Assembly: GCF_000973725.1 (NCBI RefSeq)
Contig: NZ_CP009621.1
Coordinates: 3,589,001 to 3,653,000 of the forward strand
Reading direction: 5' to 3'
DNA from: Pontibacter korlensis
Lineage (GTDB): Bacteria > Bacteroidota > Bacteroidia > Cytophagales > Hymenobacteraceae
Length of the DNA: 64,000 bases
Both the position numbers and the translations under genes were made by a program. Numbering within the stretch: position 1 is the stretch's first letter; each line of letters starts with the position of its first letter. This document shows, piece by piece, positions 18,678-30,393 of the stretch. The notes under the pieces were generated by a model, which saw nothing but the letters and a program-made list of their open reading frames with translations, had not been told where the DNA came from and did no database searches.

Positions 18678-18710
18678 TTTGTGGATTAGACAATCCTTAT
18701 TGTACCTTTG
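18678..18710 (+). promoter_or_regulatory. predicted promoter of tetR, Bacteroidota type
   Basis: TTTG at 18678-18681 and TACCTTTG at 18703-18710 (matching TAnnTTTG) are separated by 21 bases, close to the usual spacing of Bacteroidota housekeeping promoters. The operator at 18708 overlaps the downstream box, so binding there would block transcription. Confidence 0.65.
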
Positions 18711-18733
18711 GACCGAAAAACGGTTTTAGTCTA
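18708..18733. promoter_or_regulatory. putative TetR operator 1 (autoregulatory)
   Basis: Imperfect palindrome TTGGAC-N14-AGTCTA, ending seven bases before the tetR start codon. It shares its half-sites, spacing and AT-rich core (CGAAAAACG) with the sites at 19348 and 28283. Placement over the -7 box fits autorepression. Confidence 0.75.
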
Positions 18734-18739
18734 TAAGAT

Positions 18740-19330
18740 ATGAGTGATAAAGACGAAAGTATAAAGGCAGAGATTCTGGAACAGGCTCAGAAGCTTTTCA
18801 GGCACTATGGCTTGGCTAAAACCACTATGGAGGATATTGCCAAAGCGGCAGGAAAGGGAAAAAGTACGCTATACTATTACTATAAAAGCAAAGATGAAAT
18901 CTTTGACGAAGTAGTAACAAAAGAGATGAACGAGGTTTTCCGTATCCTGCAAGAGGAAGTAGGAAAGGTGCAGACCGCTGAAGAGAAGTTGTTTACTTTT
19001 AGCCTTACCAAGTTTAAGATATTAAAAGAAAGAGCTAATCTGTTTAAGGTGATTCGAGGTGATATCGAGGCTAATATGCAGCGGTTGCTAGAACTTAACA
19101 GAAGGTTTGAGGCAAGGGAGATTAGTTTAGTACGGGGAGTATTAAGGTATGGGCTGGAGAGTGGAGAGTTTGCGCAATATGCTGCTGAGGATATCGATAC
19201 CTTGGCATTTGCTATGGTGTGCTCGTTTAGAGGTATCGAGGTAGGCTTGTTGGTAGAGGATAAGTTTGCAGACTTTGAGGGTAGAATGGAGGTTCTTCAT
19301 AATATCACAATGCGAGGTTTAAAAGCCTAA
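18740..19330 (+). CDS. TetR/AcrR family transcriptional regulator of the sphingolipid operon
   Basis: A 196-residue regulator. The TetR N-terminal helix-turn-helix is at about residues 10-56 (FRHYGLAKTTMEDIAKAAGK, then KSTLYYYYKSKDEIF). The C-terminal ligand domain is all-helical, of the type often seen in regulators of lipid metabolism, but without a recognisable ligand signature. Near-identical palindromes lie over its own promoter and just downstream in front of the spt operon, and a third lies before the metallophosphoesterase unit, so it most likely represses itself and the sphingolipid genes. The inducer could be a sphingoid base or acyl-CoA; that is a guess. Confidence 0.85.
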   Translation: MSDKDESIKAEILEQAQKLFRHYGLAKTTMEDIAKAAGKGKSTLYYYYKSKDEIFDEVVTKEMNEVFRILQEEVGKVQTAEEKLFTFSLTKFKILKERANLFKVIRGDIEANMQRLLELNRRFEAREISLVRGVLRYGLESGEFAQYAAEDIDTLAFAMVCSFRGIEVGLLVEDKFADFEGRMEVLHNITMRGLKA

Positions 19331-19347
19331 AATTTTTTTGCCATACT

Positions 19348-19374
19348 TTAGACCGAAATACGAATTTGGTCTAA
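19348..19374. promoter_or_regulatory. putative TetR operator 2 (spt operon)
   Basis: TTAGAC-N14-GGTCTA with an extra matching A at 19374, the most symmetric of the three sites. An imperfect -7 box (TACTTTAG, 19344-19351) overlaps its left edge in the same geometry as at the tetR promoter. It lies 18 bases after the tetR stop and 253 bases before the spt start. Confidence 0.75.
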
Positions 19375-19626
19375 CAGGTTTGACTTTTTTTCCTTGATGC
19401 TTTTGTTAGATATCACACGATTAGGGACAATCACAATAAAGGCTATTACTATAATGTGGTGTAGGACAAGCAGTGTTGGAACAAACATTATAGGAGGCTG
19501 GAAATAACAAAGTTAGCTTCTGTTACGTCATTGCTTTATAATAATTTAATAATTATTAATATTCTGCTATTTTATGGAATAATAAATTATTAATTTAGGT
19601 ATAAAATCAATTTATTTATAAGACAG
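19375..19626 (+). other. long AT-rich leader of the spt operon
   Basis: If transcription begins at operator 2, the first gene has a 5' untranslated region of about 250 bases. Its last 100 bases are very AT-rich (runs of TAATAATTTAATAATTATT type). I see no known riboswitch. A 17-codon frame starting with ATG near 19454 exists, but nothing supports its translation. Confidence 0.45.
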
Positions 19627-28282: not shown

Positions 28283-28308
28283 TTAGACTTGAAAACAATT
28301 CTGGTCTA
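28283..28308. promoter_or_regulatory. putative TetR operator 3
   Basis: TTAGAC-N14-GGTCTA, with both half-sites identical to operator 2 and the same 14-base spacing. It lies between the operon terminator and the metallophosphoesterase start, 43 bases upstream of the ATG, where it could control the next unit. Confidence 0.7.
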
Positions 28309-28350
28309 GAAGTATTATTTAAACCTGACATACACTTATATACTGGAGAA

Positions 28351-29160
28351 ATGAAAAAGCATTCCTTTCTTTTACTAGTCCTCACTCTATTCCTGACAGC
28401 TTGTGAGGAAGTTTTTGAGTACCACCCTAATCAAATCAGGCTTAACGACAGTGAGCTTGGTTTAACGGCACGCAACGTGGAGAAGATTCGGCAGCAGAAC
28501 CCGGATGATACCGTTCGGATAGTTGTGATGGGGGATACGCAGCGTTTTTATGACAGTGCAGAGAAGTTCGTGAAAGCAGCCAACAAACTCAAGAACATAG
28601 ACTTTGTGATGCACCAGGGGGATATCTCGGACTTCGGAATGACGCAGGAGTTCAGGTGGGTGCATGACATCATGAAGAACCTGCGGTTCCCCTACCTGAC
28701 GGTTATAGGCAACCATGATCTGCTGGCAAATGGCAAGAAAGTATACCAGCAGATGTACGGCGACCTGAATTATAGTTTCGTTTATGGGCAAGTCAAATTC
28801 ATTTTCCTGGATACCAATGGCAGGGAATACGACTTCAACGGGATAGTGCCCGACATTACGTGGCTACAGGCTCAGCTTGCCCATACTCCGGAGTCGGACT
28901 GGCAGCAGGCCGTCATTGTTTCCCACATGTCCCCATTCGGCGGTGACTATGACAGCAGGCTGAGCATACCCTTTCAGCAGACGCTGGAGCAGAGTGGCCG
29001 TGTTCATCTTAGCCTGCATGGCCACGAGCATAACTGGCAGACTATAGAGCAAGAGGCAAGCGACATCACTTATCACATTACAACTTCCACCAACAACAGG
29101 GGCTTTTCTTATGTAGAGATCTGGAATGGTGGGTTCCGCATCAAAAGAATTCATTACTAA
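28351..29160 (+). CDS. metallophosphoesterase lipoprotein
   Basis: A 269-residue calcineurin-like phosphoesterase. The N-terminus is a lipoprotein signal (FLLLVLTLFLTAC, Cys at 18), so it is anchored in the envelope. The five family motifs are present: GDTQ (GD-x-H variant), GDISDFG, GNHD, the SHMSPFGGD histidine and GHEH. It should hydrolyse a phosphomonoester or diester outside the cytoplasm. It begins a new unit after the terminator, but an operator like that of the spt operon precedes it. The target could be a phospho-head group of the sphingolipid; this is conjecture. Confidence 0.85.
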   Translation: MKKHSFLLLVLTLFLTACEEVFEYHPNQIRLNDSELGLTARNVEKIRQQNPDDTVRIVVMGDTQRFYDSAEKFVKAANKLKNIDFVMHQGDISDFGMTQEFRWVHDIMKNLRFPYLTVIGNHDLLANGKKVYQQMYGDLNYSFVYGQVKFIFLDTNGREYDFNGIVPDITWLQAQLAHTPESDWQQAVIVSHMSPFGGDYDSRLSIPFQQTLEQSGRVHLSLHGHEHNWQTIEQEASDITYHITTSTNNRGFSYVEIWNGGFRIKRIHY

Positions 29161-29161
29161 T

Positions 29162-29746
29162 ATGAGAACTTGGAAGTATAAATTTCTCCTGGCTGCGCTG
29201 CTCTCCTTCCTGACCGAAAGTGTGTACAGCCAACACACCGACTCCTCTGCCTTCCACATCAAAGCACAGTTTGCCGGTGAGCTTGGTTTGGTGTCGCTGG
29301 GGGTGGGGAAGGAGTTTCTGCAGGATAAACTAGATGCGGATGTTTTTGTGGGTTACCTGCCGGAAGGTTTTGGCGGCGAGCAGCTGGTAACTGCGGCTTT
29401 GAAACTGGCTTATGTGTCTTTCGAGGCTGTGCAACTCGAGGCTTTAGATTGGCACCCGCTCAGAACAGGCCTGCAGTTAGGCTATACCTTCGGAGATGAT
29501 TACTTTGCCTTCGAGCCTCGTGATAAGTACCCGAAAGGCTACTACGGCTTTTCCACTGCTTTTCATCTCTACTACTTCCTGGGAGGTGAGGTCGAGTTTG
29601 CAAGGGTAAAGCACCTGGAAAAGTTCGGGCTGTACTATGAAACAGGTGCTCTGGGGAAATACCTTGTCTCGTACATAAAAAACCCAAAGTACTTAAGCCC
29701 GGGAAAGGTGTTCCACCTGGCATTGGGCATCAAATTATCTTTATAA
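29162..29746 (+). CDS. exported protein of unknown function, outer-membrane-like
   Basis: Start at ATG 29162, one base after the previous stop; a possible upstream start would overlap that gene. The 194-residue product has a signal peptide (KFLLAALLSFLTESVYSQ) and an alternating hydrophobic pattern with many aromatic residues and a terminal LALGIKLSL, as in small outer-membrane beta-barrels. I recognise no named family. Tight coupling to the phosphoesterase suggests a shared function in the envelope. Confidence 0.7.
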   Translation: MRTWKYKFLLAALLSFLTESVYSQHTDSSAFHIKAQFAGELGLVSLGVGKEFLQDKLDADVFVGYLPEGFGGEQLVTAALKLAYVSFEAVQLEALDWHPLRTGLQLGYTFGDDYFAFEPRDKYPKGYYGFSTAFHLYYFLGGEVEFARVKHLEKFGLYYETGALGKYLVSYIKNPKYLSPGKVFHLALGIKLSL

Positions 29747-29760
29747 CAGAATTCGCTAAC

Positions 29761-30393
29761 ATGAACAAAAAGATAGATACATCTGCATTGAATGCAAGAG
29801 CTCTGCACAAACTTACGCAGCTCAGTCAGGACGACTACCAGGCATTCCTGTACGACTGCGATGGCACTTTAGCCGACAACATGCAGGCGCATAAAGACAC
29901 CTATGTAAAGGTAGCTGCCGACAAGGGAGTGAAAATTGATCCTGCCATTGTAGATGAGTTTGCCGGCCTGCCCATCCCAGCCGTTGTAGAACAGATAAAT
30001 AAAAGGTATGGCAGCGAGTTTGACCCGATAGCGTTCGAGAAGCTAAAGTCAGACCTCTTCTATAATGAGTTTATAGCGCATACAATACCGGTTCAGTTTG
30101 TTGTGGACCACTTGGTGGCGCATGCCGGTAGTATGAAAATAGGTGTGGTATCTGGAGGTTCCAGAAAGATGATTCAGAAGACACTGGAAGTTTTGGGCAT
30201 TTCAAACTTAGTGGAGGTGCTGGTTTGTGCTGGCGATACGCCTCATGGTAAACCTCACCCCGATCCCTTCCTGGCAGCGGCAGAGCAACTTGGCGTTGCC
30301 CCGGAAAAATGCCTTGTCTTTGAGGACGGTGAGCCAGGCGTACAGGCAGCCGAGGCAGCAGGAATGAAATGGATCAGGGTAGATAAAATATAG
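29761..30393 (+). CDS. HAD-family hydrolase, beta-phosphoglucomutase/YqaB-like
   Basis: A 210-residue cytoplasmic haloacid dehalogenase-type phosphatase. Motif I is DCDGTLADN (nucleophile and acid Asp within residues 38-42), motif II is VSGG near residue 135, and motif IV is FEDGEPGVQAA near residue 180; the cap domain is the alpha-helical type between them. The family hydrolyses sugar phosphates. Located 15 bases after the exported protein gene, it is probably cotranscribed with the phosphoesterase. A phosphatase for inositol or sugar phosphate would fit but is unproven. Confidence 0.83.
   Translation: MNKKIDTSALNARALHKLTQLSQDDYQAFLYDCDGTLADNMQAHKDTYVKVAADKGVKIDPAIVDEFAGLPIPAVVEQINKRYGSEFDPIAFEKLKSDLFYNEFIAHTIPVQFVVDHLVAHAGSMKIGVVSGGSRKMIQKTLEVLGISNLVEVLVCAGDTPHGKPHPDPFLAAAEQLGVAPEKCLVFEDGEPGVQAAEAAGMKWIRVDKI

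Follow-up and report, generated by a model that had tools for sequence, protein, structure and literature searches.

When, and in answer to what, does a bacterium make sphingolipids, membrane fats that are familiar chiefly from animals and fungi? Reports credit those of gut Bacteroidota with a modulating action on host immunity, and sphingolipids or inositol lipids with an effect on the tolerance of membrane-active peptides. The question of control is raised by a locus of Pontibacter korlensis that lies in a stretch of 64,000 nucleotides (contig NZ_CP009621.1, positions 3,589,001 to 3,653,000; hereafter the window). Here a gene for a TetR-family regulator of 196 amino acids (TetR-A; 18740..19330, + strand; TetR_N 6.9e-16) stands before spt, the gene for serine palmitoyltransferase (SPT; 19627..20859, + strand), and the remainder of a putative inositol-sphingolipid pathway. 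An original prediction, made from the letters of the window, held that three copies of one palindrome define a regulon of this TetR protein. We find a conserved operator-like site over the tetR promoter in all Pontibacter loci that pair tetR-A with spt, and signs that sphingolipid operons have repeatedly come under regulators of efflux type.

Three palindromes at the locus

Searched without mismatches, the pattern TTRGAC-N14-RGTCTA occurs on the + strand of the window at starts 18708, 19348 and 28283, and the site at 19348 is also read on the second strand. These four matches at three places compare with 0.03 expected, and none of 100 shuffles reached as many, so that the repeated palindrome with its constant spacing stands as predicted. 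Read as a palindrome, the full unit is 25 bp long, with half-sites TRGACC and GGTCTA and the same spacer, N13, in all three sites: TGGACCGAAAAACGGTTTTAGTCTA, TAGACCGAAATACGAATTTGGTCTA and TAGACTTGAAAACAATTCTGGTCTA. Candidate operator 1 (18709..18733) lies over the tetR promoter, where both the exact-pattern search and a conserved footprint mark it. Operator 2 (19349..19373) lies before spt, 18 bp behind the tetR stop codon (0 mismatches; 0/200 shuffles), and operator 3 (28284..28308), also an exact-pattern match and with counterparts in two further loci (L072 and L075), lies before a metallophosphoesterase unit.

With up to two mismatches the pattern shows no excess in the window (12 against 13.6 expected), and the loose motif alone carries no meaning. 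A second form, TARAC-N15-GTYTA with one mismatch, was rejected for searching (521 per strand against 750 for its reversed control). Because loose searches gave no excess over shuffles or the reversed control, the tight 25-bp form alone, TNGACYNNNANNNNNNTNNRGTYYA, was used for further site searches. It occurs at five places in the whole 5.46-Mb genome, three of them at this locus; since the reversed control gives four per strand, it is the clustering of sites at the locus, not the genome total, that is unusual.

The -7 promoter box of Bacteroidota has the consensus TAnnTTTG. The box TACCTTTG of tetR (18703..18710, + strand) overlaps site 1 and matches this type exactly, whereas the -7-like box at site 2, TACTTTAG (19344-19351), is one base off. 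A sigma-70 scan of 18400-28600 returned 16 sites against 10.6 expected, that model being of little use for this phylum. A terminator-like hairpin (28241..28267, + strand; 12 pairs and then a T-rich tail) separates the long operon from the metallophosphoesterase unit and stands ahead of site 3; as a class, such sites show no clear excess in the scanned region (14 against 10.4).

Conservation in Pontibacter

We compared 50 Pontibacter genomes (genus code g1), with match thresholds of E <= 1e-40 for TetR and E <= 1e-130 for SPT. SPT was matched in 19/50 and TetR in 18/50, all 18 within the 19 (table 18/1/0/31; Fisher 1e-12, shared descent ignored). With the distant relative in G095 set aside, TetR-A is found in 17 of the 19 SPT genomes and in none of the 31 without SPT. 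In 17/19 spt loci tetR-A lies ahead of spt on the same strand, the gene being split in two pieces at contig ends in G127, and the operator in the tetR promoter is present in 17/17 of the tetR-A/spt loci. Among 16 aligned promoters (L078, a near-copy of L077, was excluded, its site being present) the footprint over the operator amounts to 1.74 bits per column, compared with 0.53 for the 50 columns preceding it, and pairwise identity is 89% within the operator but 39% on its upstream side. In the -7 box beside the operator, the columns of the TA and of the final T and G do not vary.

The other two sites are more restricted. Before spt, the TetR-type palindrome with at most two mismatches is seen in five of the 19 loci (the window, L072, L073, L074 and L075), and L079 has a borderline site with three mismatches (p 0.02). 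In the 17 loci covered far enough downstream, three genomes have the metallophosphoesterase gene behind the cluster, and its site was found in 3/3 (the window, L072 and L075; p values 0, 0.006 and 0.059). The constant element of the genus thus appears to be the tetR-promoter site, and the three-copy regulon, as predicted, would hold for this genome but not for the genus, the spt copy being recognisable in 5/19.

Run on 13 of the 19 spt genomes, the tight pattern found sites at this locus in 12, plus nine scattered places, about as many as the reversed control gives; the locus site of G028 ends in TCTG and was therefore missed. A near-perfect TetR-A operator also lies in G075 (C1:915030; L117 1501-1525), 126 bp before a gene for a 251-amino-acid membrane protein and at a distance of some 60 kb from tetR-A; in this one species the gene may also belong to the regulon. 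Two side observations belong here. In L088 (G087), another inverted repeat, AGAACG...CGTTCT, was seen by eye about 50-80 bp before spt. In L098 (G037), tetR-A and its operator are kept, the spt cluster is missing, perhaps by true loss or perhaps through the assembly, and a transposase-like gene lies nearby. G037 stands under another genus code than G081, yet a number of its flanking genes look the same as in that genome.

A second palindrome and an efflux operon

Another palindrome, TAGTTC-N10-GAACTA, stands with at most one mismatch 121-197 bp before spt in 11 of the 19 Pontibacter loci (0/200 shuffles each) and with two mismatches in four more (L073, L074, L077 and L078; p 0.010-0.020). L075 has both this and the TetR-type site; before spt in the window, L072, L084 and L088 the TAGTTC-type palindrome was not found. 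Its exact form, searched in 12 of the 19 spt genomes, occurs in 1-4 copies per genome against 0-2 for the reversed control. Eleven of these 12 genomes have a copy beside a GbsR/MarR-type gene, nine of them before that gene and two between it and an OEP gene (the window's genome and G073); in G129 the palindrome stands at spt only. Where the loci were read (G000, G046, G075 and G091, with Pfam on the G000 proteins), the GbsR/MarR-type gene heads an OEP-HlyD-RND efflux operon. In the window's genome some 435 kb separate this pump operon from spt, whose promoter has the TetR-type site in place of the TAGTTC-type one. The link to efflux pumps was absent from the original prediction and was added by this wider comparison.

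In genus g6 the pump and the pathway are neighbours. A MarR gene lies directly before spt in all eight spt loci found, with TAGTTGA-N5-TCAACTA (at most one mismatch) between the two genes in 8/8, and a GbsR-OEP-HlyD-RND operon lies 0.8-1.2 kb upstream of the MarR gene on the same strand, again in 8/8. Between g6 and Pontibacter the RND proteins are 85-86% identical and the GbsR proteins 49-52%, and an exact TAGTTC-type site lies near the g6 GbsR gene in 4/8 loci. Because pump and spt are adjacent in one genus and share an operator in another, these arrangements point to a functional tie of pump and pathway.

The wider sample held 291 genomes of the order, with SPT (E <= 1e-150) in 22; of the 21 SPT loci outside the window 18 were examined, those of G230, G289 and G334 being left out. 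In family f11 a distant TetR (TetR-B; 22-28% identical to TetR-A where aligned; TetR_N 4.6e-12) precedes spt in 15/15 loci, four of which have an OEP-HlyD-RND set between tetR-B and spt. Before tetR-B, TTTAAA-N6-TTTAAA was found in 15/15; when these stretches were shuffled, at most 8/300 contained it. The TetR-A palindrome was found before spt in 0/15 f11 loci, the best matches having 3-5 mismatches. TetR-B occurs in 27/291 genomes, namely at the 15 f11 spt loci and in 12 genomes without SPT, and in seven of the latter an RND gene follows on the same strand at a distance of about 2.5 kb (two RND candidates were scored per genome). The series tetR-pump, tetR-pump-spt and tetR-spt is plausibly what the capture of a pump regulator would leave, with the direction inferred. 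One further locus, L269, has a MarR gene before spt, plus an inositol cluster. In three f11 loci of genus g16 (L260, L261 and L272) a perfect palindrome, AAATTGACCTTTGGTCAATTT, was also noted within 300 bp before spt.

Loci with spt that lack both this TetR and its palindrome, named beforehand as what would speak against the predicted regulon, do exist. Counted here are 24 (G087, 8/8 in g6 and 15/15 in f11), but 23 of the 24 have another linked repressor-type regulator.

Kin of TetR-A and its operator class

Outside Pontibacter, the kin of TetR-A were followed in 38 loci (L157-L195 without L161, which is Pontibacter itself). The TetR kin stand before an HlyD-RND-TolC pump in 10/38, and in L103 besides, and before inositol-lipid genes in 3/38 (L163, L166 and L168), and in L104 besides. 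The inositol-lipid genes of L163 are those for myo-inositol-phosphate synthase (MIPS), PgpA, GtrA and DUF5686; L166 and L168 have a CDP-alcohol phosphatidyltransferase (by Pfam in L166, by eye in L168) with GtrA and DUF5686; and in L177 a pump is followed by DUF5686 and, by eye, a phosphatidyltransferase. Both additional loci come from the host's own family: L104 has the kin before a MIPS cluster, and L103 has it before a pump and then the same phosphoesterase pair as the window. As a side observation, the L103 pair (12188-13689; G153, genus g5), homologous to the metallophosphoesterase and its partner, comes after the TetR-A-like regulator and the RND pump, so that the link found in the window at 28351-29746 recurs there.

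A matrix built from the Pontibacter sites found a match before the kin's own tetR at p <= 0.01 in 13 of the 27 loci of the 38-locus set that were tested, 11 being left out, and in 8/12 further kin loci outside that set; L190 and L108 are one genome, and the site of L164 has changed half-sites. Placed on a tree built from 46 TetRs, the lipid-linked label must change six times, and well supported branches force at least five of these changes. One case of covariation was seen by eye: the recognition helix GKGKSTLYYYYKSK goes with GACC/GGTC half-sites, and a diverged, pump-linked paralogue in L077 has the helix AKGRSTIYHYFKNK and a palindrome TAGACA...TGTCGA before its gene.

This places TetR-A beside the known HlyD-RND-TolC operons headed by TetR or MarR regulators. 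Kin of both TetR-A and TetR-B head such operons, and in several kin sites of this operator class flank the regulator gene on either side; unlike in those systems, the Pontibacter operon behind the regulator makes sphingolipids.

The TetR-A protein

The N terminus of TetR-A scores 58.2 bits against PF00440 (cut-off 24), the TetR_N helix-turn-helix, and the predicted structure (predicted local distance difference test, pLDDT, 88.9) has the all-helical fold with a C-terminal ligand domain of the TetR family. The nearest folds to the model include FadR, with an acyl-CoA (stearoyl-CoA), and QacR, with amphipathic drugs. Bacillus FadR, a TetR-type regulator that responds to acyl-CoA, shares the fold (template modelling score, TM, about 0.8, with QacR tied) and is the best NCBIfam match (NF053878), a weak one of 51.7 bits over residues 11-148. 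As an equivalog assignment it was rejected, the score lying far below the cut-off of 200. Unlike TetR-A, Bacillus FadR controls fatty-acid breakdown, and its operator differs from the TetR-A palindrome.

QacR, the efflux repressor of Staphylococcus aureus, is 22% identical to TetR-A, whose predicted target is a lipid operon. The TetR-A half-site TAGACCGA equals that of the QacR IR1 operator, TAGACC-N8-GGTCTA (PMC9210681), but the six-base half-sites lie 13 bp apart for TetR-A and 8 bp apart in IR1. Because the half-site is of QacR type and the distance is 13 rather than 8 bp, TetR-A may possibly bind as a pair of dimers.

Genes of the locus

Profile searches confirmed the earlier calls of TetR, SPT and the metallophosphoesterase. 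The spt product passes the NCBIfam cut-off for the Bacteroidota enzyme (NF047600, SerpalmtaseCFB; 712.1 bits, cut-off 640). All genes of the run lie on the + strand. Behind spt come a GNAT-like acyltransferase (20837..21958; PF00583, 3.1e-05), by its position a candidate N-acyltransferase of ceramide synthesis, and an NAD-dependent epimerase/dehydratase (21955..22947; PF01370, 7.6e-34), likewise a candidate 3-ketosphinganine reductase. The inositol branch comprises MIPS (22984..24312; PF07994, 2.4e-102), a PgpA-like phosphatase (24321..24782; PF04608, 1.9e-36), a GtrA-like membrane protein (24782..25153; PF04138, 3e-17) and a phosphatidylinositol-phosphate synthase (25347..26066) that passes the NCBIfam cut-off for the BT1523 type (NF052561; 396.5 bits, cut-off 350). 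A DUF4833 protein (26083..26637; PF16117, 3.1e-51) and a fatty acid hydroxylase (26645..27265; PF04116, 1.4e-20) follow. The last product (27267..28217) resembles phosphoinositol-dihydroceramide synthase only, failing the equivalog cut-off (NF052609; 337.4 bits, cut-off 480). From these matches, the genes behind tetR read as an inositol-sphingolipid pathway in one run.

Beyond operator 3 lie a calcineurin-like metallophosphoesterase with, by eye, a lipoprotein-like N terminus (28351..29160; PF00149, 1.1e-13), an open reading frame for a protein of unknown family (29126..29746) that gave no match in a Pfam search and has its homologue beside the same phosphoesterase in L103, and a HAD hydrolase (29761..30393; NCBIfam HAD-IA).

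The run recalls BT_1522-BT_1526 of Bacteroides thetaiotaomicron, a characterised inositol-lipid cluster. Both have genes for MIPS, PgpA, phosphatidylinositol-phosphate synthase and phosphoinositol-dihydroceramide synthase, and in the available text of PMC9246714 no regulator of that cluster is named. Unlike it, the Pontibacter run also holds spt, the acyltransferase, the reductase and the hydroxylase, with a regulator in front.

Two further observations concern the window itself. Between the GtrA and phosphatidylinositol-phosphate synthase genes, where relatives have a DUF5686 gene of 869 amino acids, a short open frame of about 63 codons (25140-25334) has an end that matches the last residues (...DIGIRGRFKFDF), and a start that resembles the first residues, of that gene: an in-frame internal deletion of about 800 codons. 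At 10506-12181 a transposase-like gene, called by eye, is split over two overlapping frames, and an uninterrupted, longer relative of 557 amino acids lies near the pump operon of the same genome (L220 549-2222).

A proposed mechanism and its rivals

Sites, footprint, co-occurrence, kinship and linkage are read from sequence, and from them we infer binding, repression, a ligand, inducibility, the direction of capture and joint action with the pump. TetR-A would be a ligand-released repressor that sits, as a dimer or a pair of dimers, on TRGACC-N13-GGTCTA. Operator 1 overlaps the -7 box and the probable start, which fits steric repression and autoregulation, and binding there would shut both tetR and read-through from it. 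In this genome further copies would shut the operon from spt to the putative inositol phosphorylceramide synthase and the metallophosphoesterase unit. TetR-A would be released by a ligand, amphiphilic or lipid in nature, bound in its C-terminal pocket (the least certain step), and the inositol-sphingolipid pathway would be made. Many of the other members of the Bacteroidota TetR subfamily to which TetR-A belongs precede HlyD-RND-TolC pumps, and some precede inositol-lipid genes, with an operator of the same class. Sphingolipid operons would have captured efflux-type regulators as TetR-A in Pontibacter, as TetR-B in f11 and as a MarR behind a GbsR-headed pump in g6.

TetR control of the inositol-sphingolipid cluster appears well supported by comparison. 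The predicted control by the linked TetR through its own operator very probably holds, given the operator in 17/17 loci and the co-occurrence, but not with an spt copy as a general feature. The whole, a ligand-released TetR-A repressor on the 25-bp palindrome together with repeated capture of efflux-type regulators, is in our judgement probable. For the order of Pontibacter at large we suggest, at slightly less than an even chance, that envelope defence includes sphingolipid synthesis as an inducible branch, that the repressors of this synthesis (TetR-A, TetR-B, MarR/GbsR) were captured repeatedly, and that sphingolipids and the RND pump are switched together, by adjacency or by a shared operator. 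In Sphingobacterium detergens, spt rose 3.98-fold under polymyxin B in R2A medium, and the authors leave the mechanism open (PMC12724326).

Several observations weigh against these proposals. In 14 of the 19 Pontibacter spt loci the operator before spt is missing or cannot be recognised, the third site is weak in L075, and genome totals of the tight motif are not above the reversed control in most genomes. G087 (L088) has an spt cluster without a TetR-A, GbsR-type or MarR-type regulator or site in front, and G095 has only a TetR relative of 42-43% identity that follows the cluster and falls outside the TetR-A clade of Pontibacter. Elsewhere, spt is preceded by no such regulator in two f19 loci (L270 and L271), and 25 of the 38 kin loci, largely of Pedobacter and Mucilaginibacter, matched neither the pump nor the inositol-lipid queries. 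Sphingobacterium detergens belongs to another order than Pontibacter, and in the same report polymyxin B brought no rise of spt in LB or BHI medium (0.54- and 0.88-fold; PMC12724326).

What else could the switch serve? It may be lipid feedback and not defence, with TetR-A, like FadR, reading a long-chain acyl-CoA, a fatty acid or a sphingoid base, the switch balancing precursor supply and the pump link being historical only. The FadR likeness in fold and profile, and an operon that holds a whole lipid pathway, favour this account; against it stand the low FadR score, the equal fold match to QacR and the pump operons tied to spt, physically or by operator, in three lineages, and we hold it to be rather unlikely. 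Alternatively, the RND system may itself be part of the lipid pathway, moving the sphingolipid or a precursor across the envelope, with regulators shared for a metabolic reason. The GbsR-OEP-HlyD-RND operon upstream of marR-spt throughout g6, and the pump between tetR-B and spt in four f11 loci, agree with such a role, but 11/15 f11 loci have no pump there. Moreover, because the same RND gene, 89-92% identical, is present in five Pontibacter genomes without SPT (G002, G008, G013, G018 and G023), the pump has a job without sphingolipids; a pathway role is a distinctly unlikely explanation. Plain autoregulation, in which TetR-A controls itself and an unrelated target, the sites at spt and the metallophosphoesterase are chance or relics, and spt is under the GbsR-type site or constitutive, would account for the recognisable site lying at the tetR promoter only in most Pontibacter; it is improbable in view of the co-occurrence of TetR-A with SPT and of tetR lying ahead of spt on the same strand in 17/19 loci. 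That the palindromes are RNA structures (attenuators or terminators) is hardly credible, for although they are inverted repeats with T-rich flanks near site 2, site 1 lies on the -7 box and probable start, so is barely or not transcribed, and the half-site letters themselves are conserved, not pairing alone.

Novelty and meaning

The view that dedicated transcriptional control of bacterial sphingolipid synthesis is undescribed held up in the open-licence literature. Among the matches listed, in the titles and abstract openings of open-licence papers, no dedicated regulator was described. Nor was one found by term search in the available text of PMC12724326, PMC11324152, PMC10191378 and PMC10865984, or in that of PMC9246714. 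A TetR repressor that acts through an autoregulatory operator is familiar in kind. What appears new is the employment of one for a sphingolipid operon and the way in which this operon has been tied, more than once, to regulators of efflux type.

The repressor-operator system proposed here brings defined regulators, operators and candidate inducer classes that are now open to direct test. If it is true, sphingolipid synthesis would be a switchable envelope response tied to efflux, and this could explain the induction of spt by polymyxin B, reported with its mechanism left open (PMC12724326). Sphingolipids may thus be an on-demand part of the defence of the cell envelope.

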